Positions 23,523 through 32,343 of a stretch of DNA of 35,641 nucleotides are shown piece after piece (the stretch's first letter is position 1; every line of letters starts with the position of its first letter). This DNA comes from a virus: positions 1 to 35,641 of the IMG/VR virus record IMGVR_UViG_3300038825_000701. One strand, written 5' to 3'. The notes under the pieces were generated by a model. It made no database searches. It saw nothing but the letters and a program-made list of their open reading frames with translations, and had not been told where the DNA came from. The position numbers and the translations under genes are program-made.

Positions 23523-24176
23523 CTATGCTGTGCGTTTCCACATATAGACAACTATATATGGTTGTAAAATATCGTGAGTGTGTGCTGCTCCACCACCTGC
23601 TGCTTGTATTGCTCCACTTGAGCCAAGATTAGGTTCACCAGAAGAACCATCAACAGAAGCTACTGTTGTATTTCCGTCTTGTTTTAAAAGCCTGTCATAA
23701 CTTCCATTACTATGATTATGTGAAGGTATTTCATTAAGTGTTAATGTGTGTGCATCTGTTTCAGCACCACCTGTCGCATTAAGCGTATCAAATGTACCAC
23801 TTGATGCTTTACCTACTGGAACTCTGCCTTCTGCGTATGCTTCCCAAGTACCAAATCCAAGAAGTGTTGCAGGATTTGTTGCTACTTCTGCGTTTGTATA
23901 TATAGAACCAACTGGATATAAAGCAGCTTTGACTGCTGTTATTGCTGCGGTAACAAAAGCTGTTGTTGCTACTTGTGTTGTGTTTGTATTTGCTGAAGCA
24001 GTAGTTGCACTAAAAGATTCTGAAGCACTACCATTTAAATCAGCTTTTGTATTAACTGCTGTTTGTACTGCTGTAAACTCAGTATTAAAATCTGCACCAG
24101 AAATTACTTTTGCTGCATCAGAGTCCGATAATGCATCTTTTCCCGACCAAGATACTGCTATTGTATAATTTGCCAT
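23523..24176 (-). CDS. Tail fibre with collar domain (short)
   Basis: The product has 217 residues. The first 85 are Ala/Thr/Asn-rich stalk-like sequence. The C-terminal part is a phage tail-collar domain: YPVGSIYTNAEVATNPATLL, FGTWEAYAEGRVPVGK, then LTLNEIPSHNHSNGSY and a closing HTHDILQPYIVVYMWKR. The HNH/HTH histidines are typical metal-binding residues of collar-type receptor tips. It lies next to the nozzle-like gene and is one of two collar proteins in the window; the other is at 32793. Confidence 0.85.
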   Translation of the reverse strand: MANYTIAVSWSGKDALSDSDAAKVISGADFNTEFTAVQTAVNTKADLNGSASESFSATTASANTNTTQVATTAFVTAAITAVKAALYPVGSIYTNAEVATNPATLLGFGTWEAYAEGRVPVGKASSGTFDTLNATGGAETDAHTLTLNEIPSHNHSNGSYDRLLKQDGNTTVASVDGSSGEPNLGSSGAIQAAGGGAAHTHDILQPYIVVYMWKRTA

Positions 24177-25801
24177 TATCTTATTTTCCCTTGTTTATGT
24201 AATAAAGTTAAGTCTTGTAAACTTGTGTCAAAGCCATTTGATTCTATAGATATTTCTAGTTTCAAATTTTTAGCCGAACCTGTTAATGGTGTTTTGTATT
24301 CTTGTAGACCAAATACAGGTTTATATGTAACTCCTGACTTGCCATATAAAGATGTAGCAGAACCCCATAACGCTTGTGTTCCTGTTGTTACTGGGTTTAA
24401 AGTTATAGAAGTTGTTGGTGATGGACTTGGACTATAGTCTTTATACCACTTTAAACCTAAAGTTGCTCCAGAACCGCCTTCTAACACCATAAACAATCTT
24501 TTTAATAAAGATGCAGCTACAGATTGTCCTAAATTAATCCAAGTAGTTGCTATTCCGCTAGTGTAAGAACTATTAATATATGTTTGTAAACCACTAGGAT
24601 ATGATAAATCTGTATCATAATATCCTTCATATCCAGCAATACTTCCATCTTGCTGTCCTACTAACAATCCATATAATGTTGTATATGTTAAACTTGCTGG
24701 CTCTCTATCATTATCAAAAAACCATGTTGTAATTCTAGGTGCTCCATTTGGTGTAGCATGTTTAAAATCAAACACATAATTTATATTTTTATCAACAAAA
24801 GATAATATATATATTCCTTCATTTTCTACATAAATACTTTTAATATTTGTGCTTTGTCCTATATTTCTAATTAATGTATCTTTAATATTTAAAGATAAAT
24901 CTAGTAAAGGTAGTTTGTCTTTTTCTGTTGTACGAGCTAAAGACCTTAAACCTGTTGAAGAAATAAAAACTAAATCATCACCTATAGCTTGTATACTATC
25001 TCTACTTACGCATCCAACACCTTGTATTACTTCATCTAATGCCATACTTCCTATAACATTTGGGCTGTTATATATTGCAATATTATTTTTACCAAACACA
25101 ACTAACTTACCAAAAAACGGATGAATTGCTATAATATCATCTGAACCCCAAACAGTTTTTAAATCAATTAAACCACCATTTGAAGCACCATTTTCTGTTG
25201 TTGTTCTAAAATCATCAGCATCTAATAAACTAGAATAATACAAAACATCTTTAGATTCAGCAACACCACCTACCCACATGCGACCATAAAAACCCATACC
25301 ACAACTAGGTTTAAATTCACCAGAAGTAACACTTGAAGGTCTGTGTGCATTATCAAACGCAGCCCATTTACTGCCAGAGCCTTGTGAACCATCATATCTT
25401 TGTGGTACAACACCTGCATGTATACAAGTTAATCTATTATTAAAATTTATAAACTGCCAATCACTTGTGCTACCAGATACAGTATGTTTAACATCAGCAC
25501 CACTACTAGGAAAAGCTGCATTAGGTGCAGTAAAATCTATTGTATATATACTTGTACCATGACTAGCAAATATTTTATTTGTACCATTGTCATTATGCTC
25601 AACAATTGAACCTATTTTTGTACCAGATGGTGTTACTTTTTGTTTTAAACCTTTTCTAAAAGCAATACGACCAGACTCTCTTATTACCACATTTTCTGCT
25701 TTTGTAAGATAAGAAGGATTAAGTGTTGCTGGATTATCTTGTGTGTTTAATCCATTAATACCTATATCTTGTAAAGGTTGATATGTAAGTTCTTTAGCCA
25801 T
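24176..25801 (-). CDS. Tail nozzle / tubular protein B-like
   Basis: The product has 541 residues, β-rich throughout. The start (QPLQDIGINGLNTQDNPATL, then KAENVVIRESGRIAFRKGLK) matches the opening of T7 gp12-like tail tubular B and P22-type stabilisation proteins. Repeated Trp/Gly strand units suggest a β-propeller (WQFINFNNRLTCIH, FFGKLVVFGKNNIAIY). It would form the distal tail tube. It follows the predicted adaptor, and both neighbours abut it with 1-bp overlaps. No single diagnostic motif exists, so the call relies on pattern and order. Confidence 0.75.
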   Translation of the reverse strand: MAKELTYQPLQDIGINGLNTQDNPATLNPSYLTKAENVVIRESGRIAFRKGLKQKVTPSGTKIGSIVEHNDNGTNKIFASHGTSIYTIDFTAPNAAFPSSGADVKHTVSGSTSDWQFINFNNRLTCIHAGVVPQRYDGSQGSGSKWAAFDNAHRPSSVTSGEFKPSCGMGFYGRMWVGGVAESKDVLYYSSLLDADDFRTTTENGASNGGLIDLKTVWGSDDIIAIHPFFGKLVVFGKNNIAIYNSPNVIGSMALDEVIQGVGCVSRDSIQAIGDDLVFISSTGLRSLARTTEKDKLPLLDLSLNIKDTLIRNIGQSTNIKSIYVENEGIYILSFVDKNINYVFDFKHATPNGAPRITTWFFDNDREPASLTYTTLYGLLVGQQDGSIAGYEGYYDTDLSYPSGLQTYINSSYTSGIATTWINLGQSVAASLLKRLFMVLEGGSGATLGLKWYKDYSPSPSPTTSITLNPVTTGTQALWGSATSLYGKSGVTYKPVFGLQEYKTPLTGSAKNLKLEISIESNGFDTSLQDLTLLHKQGKIR

Positions 25802-27263: not shown

Positions 27264-27695
27264 TTACCTACCTTTTGCTAATTGTGCTCCAAAGTAGAAT
27301 TCAATAATCATTGTTGCCCATCTAAATATTTCATCAAATTTCAACATTCCTTCTACAGTAACATACTCTATTTCATCTGCTGTCAATTGAAATCCTAATA
27401 TACTAAAACCTTCTGTTACTGTCGGTATAACAGTTGGCACATTCCAAAACACAGGGGCTACCTGTGTAAATATAACTAAAGCTAATATAGTTAAAATTAT
27501 AATTCGTCTGTTCATAGCAGCCATTGGACTTTCTTTTTGTGCCATTGACCTAGCTTGATTAATAGAATCATTCCTAACTTGTAGGTTTTCTATCATCATT
27601 TTTTGTTGTTCTTGTGCTGCTTGACTTTTAAGTGCAAATAACTTTGCAATAAATCCAAGTGCAATTGGTGCTATATTTGTTAAAAATCCTATCAT
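27264..27695 (-). CDS. Holin-like protein with about three membrane segments
   Basis: The product has 143 residues. Hydrophobic segments are at about 3-20 (GFLTNIAPIALGFIAKLF), 67-87 (RIIILTILALVIFTQVAPVF) and, weaker, 125-140 (WATMIIEFYFGAQL), separated by a polar helix. Size and layout fit three-segment holins, including those of gene-transfer-agent type. It would make the inner membrane permeable late in infection. I see no endolysin next to it, so the assignment stays tentative. Confidence 0.55.
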   Translation of the reverse strand: MIGFLTNIAPIALGFIAKLFALKSQAAQEQQKMMIENLQVRNDSINQARSMAQKESPMAAMNRRIIILTILALVIFTQVAPVFWNVPTVIPTVTEGFSILGFQLTADEIEYVTVEGMLKFDEIFRWATMIIEFYFGAQLAKGR

Positions 27696-27895
27696 GCCAT
27701 TACTTTAATTAAATTTAACATGCCTACTTCACTTGCTAAAAAATATGCAAAACCACCATAAATAAAATATCTTATTTGATTTAACATATTAAATATTTTT
27801 TGTATTTTATCGTTGGTATCGTCAATCTTACTAAAAAGTTTAGCTATTTGATTAGAATGTTTATCTAGTTGTAATTGCACTCTATTGTTTTCCAT
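27692..27895 (-). CDS. Small coiled-coil membrane protein
   Basis: The product has 67 residues: a heptad helix at about 5-40 (HSNQIAKLFSKIDDTNDKIQ) and one C-terminal hydrophobic segment (FIYGGFAYFLASEVGML). It starts as TAATG on the basic microprotein before it and overlaps the holin-like gene as ATGA. A helper for the holin or a minor envelope component is possible. Function unknown. Confidence 0.6.
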   Translation of the reverse strand: MENNRVQLQLDKHSNQIAKLFSKIDDTNDKIQKIFNMLNQIRYFIYGGFAYFLASEVGMLNLIKVMA

Positions 27896-28020
27896 TACTT
27901 TTTAAACCCTTTCTTCATTTTTGCATAGGCTTTTTTAGTAATAGTAGATTTAGACTTTGGTCTACTAATACCTTTTTTCTTCCTAGCATTAATGTTTGCG
28001 TATAGTCCTCGTTTAGCCAT
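27895..28020 (-). CDS. 41-residue basic protein
   Basis: The protein MAKRGLYANINARKKKGISR continues with a Lys/Ser tail. Short proteins of this MAKRGLYANI type recur in many phages, next to virion genes. Its net charge is strongly positive, fitting a DNA- or scaffold-binding role. It starts as TAATG on the preceding stop and ends as TAATG on the next start. Function unknown. Confidence 0.65.
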   Translation of the reverse strand: MAKRGLYANINARKKKGISRPKSKSTITKKAYAKMKKGFKK

Positions 28021-28280
28021 TACCACTTCACCTTGTTTGCCCAATAAGCTGCACTCATCTTACCTTTCTTAATATTTTTACCATGTCTAGCTTTAAATGA
28101 TTTAGACCTAGCTGTTGTTTTTCTATCGCCAGTAACTCCTTGTTGACCAAATCTAATTGTTTTAATTTGATTTCCATCTTTTGCTACTACAACATGGCTC
28201 TTTGTTTTATGACTAGGTGTACGCTTGGGTTTGTTAAATCCAGATACACCTGCCCTAGCTAATCTTGAATCTTTAGCCAT
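28020..28280 (-). CDS. 86-residue basic phage protein
   Basis: The sequence begins AKDSRLARAGVSGFNKPKRT and includes SHVVVAKDGNQIKTIRFGQQ, then a basic segment (RSKSFKARHGKNIKKGKMSA) and AYWANKVKW. I have seen this pattern (KIKTIRFGQQGV...SFKARH...AYWAN) in many tailed phages. It has a β core and a basic arm, so nucleic-acid binding is plausible. Its role is not established. It is part of a TAATG-coupled run of small basic proteins. Confidence 0.75.
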   Translation of the reverse strand: MAKDSRLARAGVSGFNKPKRTPSHKTKSHVVVAKDGNQIKTIRFGQQGVTGDRKTTARSKSFKARHGKNIKKGKMSAAYWANKVKW

Positions 28281-28387: not shown

Positions 28388-28855
28388 CTAGTTTGCTAGT
28401 GGGTTATCTAAAGACTCTTGTATTCTTTTTTCCATATCTAACTTAGTTTTTTCTACTTTTATCTCAAATCTGTCTAGTTTATCATCATAATTAGTAAGTT
28501 TGGTGTCTACTGACTGTAACTTACCATCAACTTTCGACTCAAGATTCCATTGTGCATTACGCAAATCTGTCATATCTTTCTTTAATTCTATCTTAATTGC
28601 GTTTGCATGTTCTTCAATTCTTATAACATCAGCAGAAGTCTTAGACATTTGTCCTGCTATAGCGTCTAAGTCCAAATTTGCTATAGATTCAACTTTTTGG
28701 TACATAAGAAAGCCACCATACAGCGTACCAACAATCGTTGAAATAAAGGCAAATGCTCCAACGATACTCGCACCACTTAATCTAAGTCCAAAAATCTTTA
28801 ATCTTTTGTCTTTTAGACCTTCGCCTTGTCTAACTATGTCCTCTAAATCTGCCAT
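28388..28855 (-). CDS. Membrane-anchored coiled-coil protein
   Basis: The product has 155 residues. After a basic start (RQGEGLKDKRLKIFGLRLSG) there is a membrane segment at about 28-52 (ASIVGAFAFISTIVGTLYGG), then about 90 residues of coiled coil (EEHANAIKIELKKDMTDLRN and KLDRFEIKVEKTKLDMEKR). This resembles inner-membrane spanins or chemoreceptor-like rods. It overlaps the exported-protein gene at 28855 as TGATG, so it may be the inner-membrane partner of that cassette. Function is not known. Confidence 0.65.
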   Translation of the reverse strand: MADLEDIVRQGEGLKDKRLKIFGLRLSGASIVGAFAFISTIVGTLYGGFLMYQKVESIANLDLDAIAGQMSKTSADVIRIEEHANAIKIELKKDMTDLRNAQWNLESKVDGKLQSVDTKLTNYDDKLDRFEIKVEKTKLDMEKRIQESLDNPLAN

Positions 28856-29271
28856 CAGTTGTTAAATGCACCATCATTTTGTAATTGTTTAAGATATTCT
28901 ATCTCTTGTCTTAACCTTTCTACCTCTAATCTGCGTCTTTGTAACTCAAGTTGGTATAAAGTATTACAATTTATTCGCTCTTTTGGTGCATCTAAAGGTA
29001 TTATTATTCTAGCATACAATCCAACATCTTTGGTCTGTGGATTTAAATCATTTTTTTTACCTATAATTGGCACTACTGCGTTGTTTATTACTCCAGTAAA
29101 CCCAAATTCAAAGTTTGTTGCACCACCTATACTATTAGAACAATCTAAATCACCTGCTTTAATTTTGTCTGAGCCACTACTTGTACCCGAACTTGGTAAA
29201 GAAAATGACATTGAGTTGCTTTCAGCTATTGTTTGCGTACTTAACAACAACAAAATAACTAACCACCTCAC
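28855..29271 (-). CDS. Exported protein with C-terminal coiled coil
   Basis: The product has 138 residues from GTG at 29271 (GAGG 6 nt upstream). A signal peptide MRWLVILLLLSTQTIA-ES is followed by a Ser/Gly-rich part and a β region (TNFEFGFTGVINNAVVPIIG, then VGLYARIIIPLD). Two cysteines, 44 and 102, could pair in the periplasm. The last 35 residues are a coiled coil (LYQLELQRRRLEVERLRQEI). It closes the run of exported genes and could link to the membrane-anchored coiled-coil protein encoded next. I recognise no named family. Confidence 0.65.
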   Translation of the reverse strand: MRWLVILLLLSTQTIAESNSMSFSLPSSGTSSGSDKIKAGDLDCSNSIGGATNFEFGFTGVINNAVVPIIGKKNDLNPQTKDVGLYARIIIPLDAPKERINCNTLYQLELQRRRLEVERLRQEIEYLKQLQNDGAFNN

Positions 29272-29639
29272 TTAAACCTCGAACATATCTTTGATTCTAC
29301 TATAGGTTTAAAGTCATCATTGCCTCTAAGTTTAGATGTTGAGCATATATACTCTGCTCTTTTAGAATCATTGTCATTTACATAAACATCAAACTTAACA
29401 CGACTCAAATACTTTACTCTTAATATTTTGTACCTAGTTACAAATGGTATAGGTTGCCAATCTTTATCAAACACACCTATTTGATACCATTGCACATCTG
29501 ACCTTTTATTAAAAACTTCCATAGAAGTCATTTTAGCACTTGGTATAAACGACATTTTCCACTTTGGGTAAGTGGGTGTCATATCATGGGCAGCTACAAT
29601 ACTAGATAGCAATGCCCACAGTATTACTGGGCGATACAT
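29268..29639 (-). CDS. Exported single-domain PapD-like (Ig-fold) protein, tentative
   Basis: The product has 123 residues with a signal peptide (MYRPVILWALLSSIVAA). The mature sequence has the strand pattern of the N-terminal domain of PapD-type pilus chaperones. It contains VFNKRSDVQWYQIGVFDKDW, then PFVTRYKILRVKYLSRVKFD and RAEYICSTSKL, with Cys99 and Cys119. Full chaperones have a second domain that is missing here, and I cannot confirm the diagnostic Arg/Lys pair. It lies directly after a pilin-like gene, the usual order of chaperone-usher operons. The assignment is inference. Confidence 0.45.
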   Translation of the reverse strand: MYRPVILWALLSSIVAAHDMTPTYPKWKMSFIPSAKMTSMEVFNKRSDVQWYQIGVFDKDWQPIPFVTRYKILRVKYLSRVKFDVYVNDNDSKRAEYICSTSKLRGNDDFKPIVESKICSRFK

Positions 29640-30145
29640 TGTGCTGTTACAACTGCTGTATATGAACCACCAGGAAATGCTGTATTGTTACCACCACCAT
29701 AAGTAGCAGATGATGTTACTTCAAACCATGTTGTTCCTGCTATAGTCAAAGCATATTGCCTCATAGCACCTGTTGTTGTACTAGCTGCTTGATAACCCGA
29801 CATATCTGTACTAGATGTTTGTGCAACTGTTACACCACCTGTCCAAGTAACATTATCACTAAGACTTGGGCTTGAACTAAAAGACTCTGGATAACTTATT
29901 TGTGCGTAATAAGCATTAGCTAGTGATGTATCAAATCTAACAATAGGTTTTTGTCCACCATCAGCAGGTGTAGTATTTAATGTGTAGGCATTAGGGTTTC
30001 CATAATATCCTACAGTATCAGTTGCTACTGTACATCTTGATTGTACTGTACCTGTAATATCTGTATTAGCTTCTACTTTTTTAGGAAACAAAAAAGAACA
30101 TCCAGTAATTCCTAAGACTAAAAATAGTGTAATTAATTTTTTCAT
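29624..30145 (-). CDS. Exported pilin-like / SCPU-like protein, tentative
   Basis: The product has 173 residues. The start, MKKLITLFLVLGITGC, fits a lipoprotein signal (ITGC, Cys16), though cleavage further on at VEA-NTD is also possible. The mature part is β-rich: ITGTVQSRCTVATDTVGYYG, many Thr/Ser/Tyr strands, and the end PGGSYTAVVTAQCIA. Cys38 near the front and Cys170 near the end could bridge first and last strands. This resembles the C-x-V...G-x-Y-x-D/V end pattern of fimbrial and spore-coat U proteins. It overlaps the PapD-like gene by 16 bp. Confidence 0.45.
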   Translation of the reverse strand: MKKLITLFLVLGITGCSFLFPKKVEANTDITGTVQSRCTVATDTVGYYGNPNAYTLNTTPADGGQKPIVRFDTSLANAYYAQISYPESFSSSPSLSDNVTWTGGVTVAQTSSTDMSGYQAASTTTGAMRQYALTIAGTTWFEVTSSATYGGGNNTAFPGGSYTAVVTAQCIAQ

Positions 30146-31020
30146 TTATATTGCTCCTGTATCATTTCTTCATGTAATTGTTCTTGTGTTAAACTTCTAA
30201 ATACTAACTTATTATCCACTATATCTTTGTCTTGTAGTACAATTGTATCTTTATAAACTGTACTTGGTATATCAGCAACATAATAAGAATTAATATTTGT
30301 TGCTATGTTCATGCTTTTTAAAATAGCTGATTGTGTTACTGCGTTAGCTATTGTTAAAGCATTTCCAGAAGATGCTAAAGCTATTTCTAATCTTTCTTTT
30401 TCTTCTTCTTCTTCTGTGTTTTCTTTACTTTCTACTTCTTTGTCGTATAACTCACTATCTGTTTCGTCTGTAGCTTCTGCTACATATTCATCTTCAAGTG
30501 CGTCATATATTTCTATCTTTGGTATAACTGGTAATGGCTCAACATAATTAGGGCAGTCTGGGTCATTCTGTGGATTTCGACATAAATCCCATCTGTACAT
30601 ATATATAACACTTGCCTCTTCTACACTACCTACACCTGTTGTTTGTATTGCACCTTCACCAAATTTTTCTATTGGCGTGTAAGCTAACGGAATAACTTTT
30701 TGTATTTTCATTCCATGCTTACCAGACCAATCATCAGTTTCTTGAAATATGTACCCACCATCTACATTTTCATTTGATATAGTAACTGTAAAATCGTCTA
30801 CTTGATTTTTAACTGCTGTGTAATTATAAATTACACCACTAATATCTAATCCCTCTTCTGCACTCACACCTAATGTTGGTGTATTCATTTGCCAAGTATT
30901 GCCATATATTGCAGCATTACTTGTATATCCAAATGTATAACTAAAAGAATATAAAGGCAGCAGCAACAGTACCCATAATACTAAGGGCTTTATCACGCTT
31001 TTCTTGTGCAGTAATCTCAT
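30142..31020 (-). CDS. Exported protein with Cys motif and acidic linker
   Basis: The product has 292 residues. The signal peptide is MRLLHKKSVIKPLVLWVLLL, ending near SFS-YTF. A β-rich N-terminal domain (GYTSNAAIYGNTWQMNTPTL) leads to the motif WDLCRNPQNDPDCPNY, with Cys147 and Cys156. A 45-residue Glu/Asp-rich linker follows, then a helical C-terminal domain. AAAGGAGG stands 3-4 nt before the ATG, confirming the start although it overlaps the upstream gene by 80 bp. The signal peptide is thus written in another frame of the upstream gene. I recognise no family. Confidence 0.65.
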   Translation of the reverse strand: MRLLHKKSVIKPLVLWVLLLLPLYSFSYTFGYTSNAAIYGNTWQMNTPTLGVSAEEGLDISGVIYNYTAVKNQVDDFTVTISNENVDGGYIFQETDDWSGKHGMKIQKVIPLAYTPIEKFGEGAIQTTGVGSVEEASVIYMYRWDLCRNPQNDPDCPNYVEPLPVIPKIEIYDALEDEYVAEATDETDSELYDKEVESKENTEEEEEKERLEIALASSGNALTIANAVTQSAILKSMNIATNINSYYVADIPSTVYKDTIVLQDKDIVDNKLVFRSLTQEQLHEEMIQEQYK

Positions 31021-31474
31021 CTTCCTCCTTTGGCATAGGTACTTTATCAGTCCTTACAGCCCATGCGTTTTTAGCTTGGTCGCCTATTAAACCATCAATA
31101 GGGCATGGCGTACCTGCATCCATCATTGCAGACCATACATCTGGGTCTTGGCACATCACACTAACTGCTGCTACTTTCATTCCAAACATATACAGTTTTT
31201 GTGCCTTTTTTAGTCTTAGGCAGTTTTCTTCTGTGTATGTAGTGCCTACTGATAAACCTAAAATCTGTGTCTGTACTGAGCCACTAGAAGAAATCGTACA
31301 TAAATCACTATTGTTTCCACTACCAAATTGTGGCGATATAGCACTAGGTGGCGGACTAATTACTTCTGTTTTTTGATTGCCATTTGTTGTTACTGTGCTA
31401 GTAGATTCTGTAACTATAGGGTCTGCTGCAAATACAGAACTTACTACTAATAAAAATAAAATTAATTTACGCAT
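30941..31474 (-). CDS. Exported protein with four cysteines and C-terminal hydrophobic end
   Basis: The product has 177 residues: signal peptide MRKLILFLLVVSSVFA-AD, a Thr/Ser/Pro-rich stretch, then NSDLCTISSSGSVQTQILGL and ENCLRLKKAQKLYMFGMKVA, with Cys59, 85, 108 and 124. A final hydrophobic tail (ALSIMGTVAAAFIFF) may anchor it. The four cysteines suggest two disulphides. The DLCTI-SGSVQTQ pattern looks familiar from marine phage genes but has no function I know of. It starts the exported run, directly after the 2OG oxygenase gene. Confidence 0.65.
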   Translation of the reverse strand: MRKLILFLLVVSSVFAADPIVTESTSTVTTNGNQKTEVISPPPSAISPQFGSGNNSDLCTISSSGSVQTQILGLSVGTTYTEENCLRLKKAQKLYMFGMKVAAVSVMCQDPDVWSAMMDAGTPCPIDGLIGDQAKNAWAVRTDKVPMPKEEDEITAQEKRDKALSIMGTVAAAFIFF

Positions 31475-32039
31475 ATAAAGTATACCAACCAGTTACAATA
31501 TATTTTTCATTACTAATAGGTGGATTGCCTCTATGTGTTGCCATATAATTTGCAGGAAATAAACATATTTTTCCTTTTTCTGCTTTTTCTCTATGGGCGT
31601 GATATAAAAATTCTGTTTCTCCACCTTCCTTTACATCATTTAAATATATTGTCCATACTGCAATTCTATTAGAAGATGCTAAATTTGTATCTTCGCAATG
31701 CCAAGTGTGAAACCCACCACCTATTTCTGTTTTTTGTACTTTTTGTTTTGTGCTTTTTATTACACCATCATCTAAATATAAAGTGTTATAAATATCACAA
31801 TACTCTTTAGCTGCTGCTGTTAAATATTCATTAACACGAGAAGTTAAAGTTCCATTTATTTCATCTAAAAATAATGATTTATCTTTTCTATTGTTTGTAC
31901 CATCGTGTATTTTTTCATTTGCAGAAATTGTACTTGGATTTTGTTTTTGTACAGTTTCAAAATAATTAATTAATTCATCACAAAGTTCATCTGAAACTTT
32001 GATACTTGAAACTACAATGCCACTACTATTTATTTTCAA
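31467..32039 (-). CDS. 2-oxoglutarate/Fe(II) oxygenase, prolyl-4-hydroxylase-like
   Basis: The 190-residue product starts from TTG at 32039, which has AAAGGA 7 nt upstream; a GTG at 32060 would add 7 residues. The core reads FHTWHCEDTN (metal His114 and Glu116), then NRIAVWTIYLNDVKEGGETE, a hallmark of P4H-type oxygenases, KICLFPANYMATHRGNPP with distal His169, and KYIVTGW with Lys179 for 2-oxoglutarate. It probably hydroxylates proline or another residue of a protein, possibly tail fibres or exported proteins made nearby. It overlaps the exported-gene start by 8 bp. Confidence 0.82.
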   Translation of the reverse strand: MKINSSGIVVSSIKVSDELCDELINYFETVQKQNPSTISANEKIHDGTNNRKDKSLFLDEINGTLTSRVNEYLTAAAKEYCDIYNTLYLDDGVIKSTKQKVQKTEIGGGFHTWHCEDTNLASSNRIAVWTIYLNDVKEGGETEFLYHAHREKAEKGKICLFPANYMATHRGNPPISNEKYIVTGWYTLYA

Positions 32040-32343
32040 GAGATATTCCTTTTTTAGCACTAACCAATTTATTAAATTCTGCTTGTCCTTTTACTGTTTC
32101 ATTTCTAAAACTTTCTAAAGCAGCAGTTTGCCCTCTGTTAGTAGCTGACATTTCTATTTGTAATGTAGGCATCCAAGTTATAGCACAAGACCAATCATCA
32201 ACTGTTTCTCCAGTATTAGCATCCATACCAACAACTTTTGTGTACCACATACACCTGTAGATTTTATTATCCTTTATTTCCTCACATTCACTTCCAAGAG
32301 GACAGGTAAACTCTACCTCTAAATCTTTTTTTCCTTTCGGCAT
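32026..32343 (-). CDS. Cysteine-containing conserved phage protein
   Basis: The product has 105 residues. FTCPLGSECEEI and YRCMWYTKVVGMDANTGETV are followed by SCAITWMPTLQIEMSATNRG and a Lys/Asn helix (FRNETVKGQAEFNKL). Four cysteines (CPLGSEC, RC, SC) could bind zinc or form disulphides. I have seen this pattern in several marine phage genomes, next to tail genes, with no known function. It overlaps the oxygenase start by 14 bp and may be its partner or substrate. Confidence 0.65.
   Translation of the reverse strand: MPKGKKDLEVEFTCPLGSECEEIKDNKIYRCMWYTKVVGMDANTGETVDDWSCAITWMPTLQIEMSATNRGQTAALESFRNETVKGQAEFNKLVSAKKGISLENK

Follow-up and report, generated by a model that had tools for sequence, protein, structure and literature searches.

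Six consecutive genes, termed here P1 to P6, form a conserved cassette on the minus strand of a 35,641-nucleotide stretch of viral DNA (IMG/VR virus record IMGVR_UViG_3300038825_000701; the whole 35.6-kb stretch, with 33.6% G+C, is referred to below as the window). P1 to P5 carry predicted export signals, whereas P6 is a membrane-anchored protein with a probable coiled coil. The cassette is best explained, tentatively and at slightly under an even chance, as an obligate, horizontally transferred, and previously undescribed six-gene unit that is carried by many ocean phages of unrelated families and encodes an envelope complex of the lysis stage, which would do a spanin-like job with unrelated parts.

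A conserved and mobile six-gene block

Viral contigs were scanned with P1, P4, and P5; hundreds of related stretches emerged, and the analysis drew on the top 80 from each scan. In this set, all six genes are found in 191 loci, 141 of them distinct in DNA, and follow the order P1 to P6 in every one. Incomplete loci hold contiguous pieces of this string (e.g., 23456 or 1234), such as contig ends would leave. The commonest junctions are overlaps of 4 nucleotides (P2-P3 and P4-P5) and 1 nucleotide (P5-P6). Departures from the standard layout include a second P6 in tandem at the cassette end (one contig, seen as L074, L164, and L246), a locus with split P2 and P6 (L119), and a class-3 lipase gene inserted within the cassette upstream of P6 (L196:9822-10553).

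Every cassette gene is under purifying selection, with median ratios of nonsynonymous to synonymous substitution rates of 0.14, 0.23, 0.24, 0.15, 0.12, and 0.08 for P1 to P6, respectively. Pairwise distances of P1 to P6 show mutual correlations of 0.74 to 0.89, and lower ones, 0.61 to 0.77, with those of the neighboring holin-like and XhlA-like genes. The cassette is found on SU10/P22-like backbones, as judged by the portal, adaptor, and capsid genes of the window, on T4-like backbones (with gp32 in L219 and UvsX in L210), and on others. Its presence in both SU10/P22-like and T4-like genomes indicates that it moves as one piece. In some T4-like contigs (L210 and L193), most neighboring genes lie on the opposite strand and the cassette is located away from structural genes.

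Among 50,697 phage records, nothing matches P3, P4, or P5 significantly. When 84,980 species genomes of bacteria and archaea were searched with the P4 profile, a single relative came up, on a metagenome-assembled contig with the whole cassette and a class-3 lipase gene. The L154 contig, in the bin of the Bacteroidetes metagenome-assembled genome UBA4009, encodes the whole cassette, a class-3 lipase, and an iron-sulfur assembly protein, and is probably a phage contig in that bin.

Export signals and conserved cysteines

Proteins are described here as exported on the basis of hydropathy, a permissive cleavage-motif rule, and conservation. In a hydropathy scan of 50 window genes, P1 to P5 rank among the genes whose N-terminal segments are most hydrophobic (best 11-residue mean, 2.1 to 3.1); the only other genes scoring above 2 are P6, the holin-like neighbor, and a DnaB open reading frame whose start is probably over-extended. 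A hydrophobic h-region followed by a -3/-1 motif, assigned by a crude and permissive rule, is found in 131 of 132 P1, 136 of 138 P2, 141 of 141 P3, 145 of 145 P4, and 154 of 159 P5 relatives. This agrees with an earlier note on the window, made from the sequence alone, which had proposed signal peptides for all five proteins.

That note had also suspected a lipobox in one gene. The lipobox of the window P3 (ITGC) is real but limited to a subset of the family: it is found in 61 of the 141 distinct P3 sequences, the remainder having an ordinary A-x-A site. Lipoboxes are also seen in 14 of 132 P1, 4 of 145 P4, and 10 of 159 P5 sequences. The even numbers of cysteines that the note had counted in the mature proteins are conserved in four of the five. 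P1 contains four invariant cysteines (C59, C85, C108, and C124); P3 and P5 contain two each (C38 and C170, and C44 and C102, respectively); and in P4, C99 and C119 are kept in at least 95% of 145 sequences. The count does not hold for P2, whose mature cysteines vary among relatives, and P3 has three when its lipobox cysteine is included. P5 also contains a highly conserved ERINCNTLYQLEL motif, which is followed by a probable C-terminal coiled coil.

Predicted folds of P4 and P3

AlphaFold2 models of P4 and P3 were built on alignments of relatives, with predicted local distance difference test (pLDDT) scores of 86.1 and 83.8, respectively. Foldseek matches the P4 model to DraB (E value of 3.8e-4, probability 1.00), and VIA aligns it with SafB (Z score of 10.4 over about 100 residues) and, with Z scores of about 10, with Caf1M and FimC. 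P4 residues 17 to 123 superpose on FimC residues 1 to 114. MSP/VAP domains and the immunoglobulin (Ig) domain of CsxA match P4 equally well, so that the predicted PapD-like fold is secure and a chaperone role is not. P4 consists of one domain that ends at the position of FimC residue 114, without the second Ig domain that gives chaperones their boomerang shape. In the model, the last two predicted strands (residues 97 to 105 and 112 to 121) carry C99 and C119, respectively. FGL chaperones contain a disulfide between the F1 and G1 strands (PMC4133393), and the P4 cysteines occupy that position, predicting the same bond. Pilus chaperones anchor their subunits through an Arg in strand A1 and a Lys in strand G1. 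The A1 region of P4 has no conserved basic residue; basic residues 121 and 123 lie near the position of FimC K112. In hhalign comparisons with the K-12 chaperones, P4 aligns in the expected register, not significantly, and sequence profiles show no relation; a viral structure library contained no informative neighbor.

The top Foldseek matches of P3 are the PapG pilin domain, FimG, and CfaB, with E values of about 0.01. VIA Z scores do not exceed 7.5, and integrins, MSCRAMM adhesins (SdrD), and other proteins are as close as pilins. P3 is thus predicted to form an Ig-like sandwich, whose likeness to pilins is a weak assignment. Its conserved mature N terminus, I30-x-G32-x-V34-x-x-x-C38, resembles a pilin donor strand and is in register with FimA-type pilins. 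Homology of P3 to E. coli K-12 pilins, indicated by an initial hhalign score of 91%, was not supported: that score rested on the signal peptide, and mature P3 against mature pilins scores 17.8, compared with 18.1 and 18.6 for the best column shuffles. As the score falls to shuffle level, no sequence homology is claimed.

Relatives in cultured phages

Six pelagiphages, two roseophages, and other phages carry P1 homologs with the same four cysteines (tblastn E values down to 5e-29). In HTVC023P, HTVC202P, HTVC115P, Baldr, Mosig, CRP-207, and CRP-810, the P1 homolog belongs to a trio with a long exported protein and a P6 homolog. P6 aligns with its pelagiphage equivalents with an hhalign probability of 96.7%, and the pelagiphage homolog ends in the same NPL motif. 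P1 and P6 come in the same order as in the cassette, at several of these loci close to holin, lysozyme, or M15 genes, whereas P3, P4, and P5 are missing and nearly all members of the trio are annotated as hypothetical. In Mosig, for example, the order is GTA_holin_3TM, P1, a long acidic exported protein, P6, and a small membrane coiled-coil protein. The long protein occupies the position of P2, but no significant sequence relation between the two was detected; a hint of carbohydrate binding in HTVC202P is below the Pfam cutoff (E value of 0.02). The occurrence of this trio in pelagiphages suggests that P3 to P5 are an addition between P2 and P6 in uncultured lineages.

Roseophages CRP-207 and CRP-810 encode a short predicted lipoprotein that contains a P1-like domain (L150:1725-1940 and L151:5609-5869); its gene overlaps the start of the P1 homolog, in the manner of overlapping spanin genes.

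Lysis-type genes next to the cassette

Among the 122 distinct loci whose sequence extends at least 2.5 kb downstream of P6, 108 have a holin-like, XhlA-like, lysozyme, or lipase gene no farther than 2.5 kb from the P6 end. The holin-like families involved are mostly unnamed in PHROGs. The curated enzyme families near P6 include GH24 lysozyme, class-3 lipase, a SleB-type cell-wall hydrolase, a predicted lipoprotein with a CHAP domain, M15 peptidase, and GH19 with a peptidoglycan-binding domain. The presence of these unrelated families in different phages provides independent support for a lysis neighborhood. Among cultured phages, HTVC023P encodes an M15 peptidase directly after the P6 homolog, HTVC033P has an amidase gene and a lysozyme label near the P1 homolog, and in Mosig the GTA_holin_3TM gene that precedes P1 resembles the holin-like gene of the window (90.5% in profile comparison). 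The association is correlative. The location of the cassette, mostly just ahead of lysis-type genes, suggests that it probably acts on the outer envelope of the host at phage exit.

Several observations weigh against a lysis role. Upstream of P1, the same markers are found at no more than 9 of 60 loci with enough sequence, but this contrast is partly circular, as the markers were seeded from genes near the cassette, on its downstream side. Several of the enzyme families were seen only once, and two of the genes, SleB and GH19, are encoded on the opposite strand. In CRP-207 and CRP-810, it is the P6-like gene itself that the depositors named lysozyme, and these labels are not counted as independent, which leaves HTVC023P (M15) and HTVC033P as the only ones of these four phages with independent lysis neighbors. 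In JWAlpha, the P1 homolog is located away from lysis genes, and no endolysin was recognized among the window genes scanned. Lysis and tail-fiber genes are often neighbors as late genes, and neighborhood is not function. A crude charge rule for membrane orientation divides the P6 sequences (87 of 153). Finally, five is a large number of exported proteins for a spanin-like job, and the P3 lipobox is confined to part of the family.

Gene layout of the window

The coordinates of the cassette genes and of the two lysis-type neighbors that recur downstream of it are listed in Table 1. P1 and P2 overlap by 80 nucleotides in the window (30941-31020) and by about 60 to 146 nucleotides in relatives; the P2 signal peptide is encoded across the hydrophobic C-terminal tail of P1.

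Table 1. Cassette genes and recurrent downstream neighbors in the window
Gene	Position	Strand	Description
P1	30941..31474	-	Exported protein, 177 amino acids; signal peptide, short hydrophobic C-terminal tail; phrog_20531 family
P2	30142..31020	-	Exported protein, 292 amino acids; beta-rich N-terminal half, acidic linker, conserved C-terminal end
P3	29624..30145	-	Exported protein, 173 amino acids; lipobox in the subclade of the window, predicted Ig-like sandwich
P4	29268..29639	-	Exported single-domain protein, 123 amino acids; predicted PapD-like fold
P5	28855..29271	-	Exported protein, 138 amino acids; GTG start
P6	28388..28855	-	155 amino acids; N-terminal transmembrane segment, long probable coiled coil, conserved C-terminal NPL motif
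XhlA-like neighbor	27692..27895	-	Small protein with a single C-terminal transmembrane segment; weak family match
Holin-like neighbor	27264..27695	-	Probable three-transmembrane protein; GTA_holin_3TM-like (profile comparison with phage Mosig)

The five adjacent, overlapping minus-strand genes described in the earlier note (31474-28855) are all present at that place and on that strand, directly followed by the membrane-anchored coiled-coil gene that it had reported. Neither outcome that it had named as a refutation was seen: P1 to P5 have their export signals, and relatives keep the genes together in the same order. The note placed them in a tail module. Tail-fiber genes do lie upstream, but the downstream side holds the XhlA-like and holin-like genes and only then neck genes. 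Of the roles that it considered (lysis, an envelope structure, or modification of the host surface), the neighborhood favors lysis or an envelope structure assembled at lysis. Its statement that no known family explains the set holds for the set as a whole: Pfam searches gave no family for any of P1 to P6, PDB sequence-profile searches with P1 to P5 gave only chance matches, and no phage record matched a 15.6-kb portion of the window by Megablast. The PapD-like fold of P4, the Ig sandwich of P3, the cultured-phage relatives of P1 and P6, and the lysis-like nature of the next genes had escaped it.

Three other genes of the window deserve mention. A 2OG-Fe(II) oxygenase gene (31467-32060) adjoins the cassette upstream, and similar oxygenases are found beside P1 at other loci. 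A small basic protein ending in AYWANKVKW (28020-28280; phrog_7595) also adjoins the P1 homologs of roseophages. The 541-residue product of 24176-25801 is labeled "amidase" in PHROGs (E value of 1.9e-52), but its location next to the adaptor gene points to a tail or neck protein and a possible mislabel; this label was not used as evidence for an endolysin.

Comparison with known envelope systems and alternative explanations

Two-component spanins (Rz/Rz1) are similarly encoded beside holin and endolysin genes and act at the outer membrane, as proposed for the cassette, and P6, with its N-terminal anchor and probable coiled coil, may resemble an i-spanin. However, the cassette contains six genes instead of two, and a small outer-membrane lipoprotein, part of the definition of a two-component spanin (PMC9636201), is not constant in it. 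Rz (PF03245) was not detected in any of 25 cassette records at E values of up to 0.1, a weak test because spanins are very diverse and several records may be incomplete. With no Rz match and no constant lipoprotein, the cassette is not a recognized two-component spanin pair.

Chaperone-usher pili (PapD/FimC, and the FGL type of Caf1M and SafB) share with the cassette a PapD-like N-terminal domain, as predicted for P4, the paired F1/G1 cysteines, and perhaps an adjoining pilin-like protein. Curli (type VIII secretion) of pelagiphages and of phage Melnitz share with it the property of being a multigene exported module that moves between phage families; in pelagiphages the curli genes are multigene transfers (PMC9599517). 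Neither system fits. The usher (PF00577) was found in none of the 25 records at E values of up to 0.01, with some records possibly incomplete but contigs of 220, 153, and 119 kb included, and CsgG (PF03783) in none of them, several possibly incomplete; the controls were positive in E. coli and in four genomes, respectively. The cassette is therefore neither a chaperone-usher pilus nor a curli system, and its proteins are, as far as tested, unrelated to those of curli. A lysis role has also been proposed for phage curli genes, including those of Melnitz (PMC9004378, PMC9599517), and such exported phage modules are thus still unexplained. The literature searched on phage-encoded PapD or chaperone-usher genes in marine phages contained nothing on point.

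The same likenesses would suit a surface fiber or adhesin, with P3 as a pilin-type subunit, P4 as its PapD-like chaperone, and P1, P2, P5, and P6 in place of the usher. Fibers on infected cells might aggregate cells or block superinfection, as proposed for pelagiphage curli. The F1-G1 cysteine position of P4, the Foldseek pilin matches of P3 and its FimA-type register, and the precedent of curli transfers (PMC9599517) are in favor of this explanation, which nevertheless appears unlikely, given the lack of an usher or CsgG in the 25 records, a mature P3 score not above that of the best column shuffles, integrins and SdrD as close to P3 as pilins, the missing second domain of P4, and the lysis-type neighbors.

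Superinfection exclusion, or another modification of the host surface during infection and independent of lysis, would account for the transfer of the cassette as a unit and for its occurrence as a stand-alone operon in T4-like contigs. There are precedents elsewhere among phages, where exported and lipid-anchored proteins prevent adsorption or the entry of DNA. Nevertheless, known exclusion factors are smaller than this conserved unit of six genes, and exclusion does not predict an association with holin and lysozyme genes, making this explanation quite unlikely. It is very unlikely that the cassette is virion associated, with exported parts being added to particles in the periplasm or upon release, or with P1 to P6 acting on entry through the envelope. 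Its location between tail-fiber and neck genes in the window would fit, and late operons often mix structural and lysis genes; however, tailed-phage particles assemble in the cytoplasm, which five signal peptides argue against, and in the T4-like contigs L210 and L193 the cassette is set apart from structural genes.

Proposed mechanism and implications

In the favored explanation, a lysis-stage envelope complex made late in infection, P6 would hold the assembly to the inner membrane, while P1 to P5 would be exported by Sec and acquire disulfides as they fold in the periplasm. P4, with its PapD-like fold, might cap or assemble the pilin-like P3, the pair working like a chaperone with its subunit or forming a capped Ig unit. 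The complex could reach the outer membrane (in one subclade, P3 is predicted to be a lipoprotein) and help to breach or weaken it after the holin and endolysin have acted, a job done by spanins in other phages. The block itself, with its conservation and mobility, is shown directly, and the export signals and folds are predictions; complex formation, outer-membrane action, and the chaperone role of P4 are inferred. A more far-reaching and doubtful possibility is that the cassette represents a new class of lysis machinery for Gram-negative hosts, a multicomponent, envelope-spanning one that combines a donor-strand-type Ig subunit with a single-domain PapD-like partner, moves as a unit among unrelated marine phages, and replaces spanins in them.

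The means by which phages open the outer membrane of abundant marine bacteria are for the most part unexplained. A mobile cassette located beside lysis-type genes, two of whose genes have relatives in cultured pelagiphages, makes this question testable. If the proposal is true, phage use of a PapD-like periplasmic domain, undescribed in the literature searched, would take its place next to the known phage curli genes.

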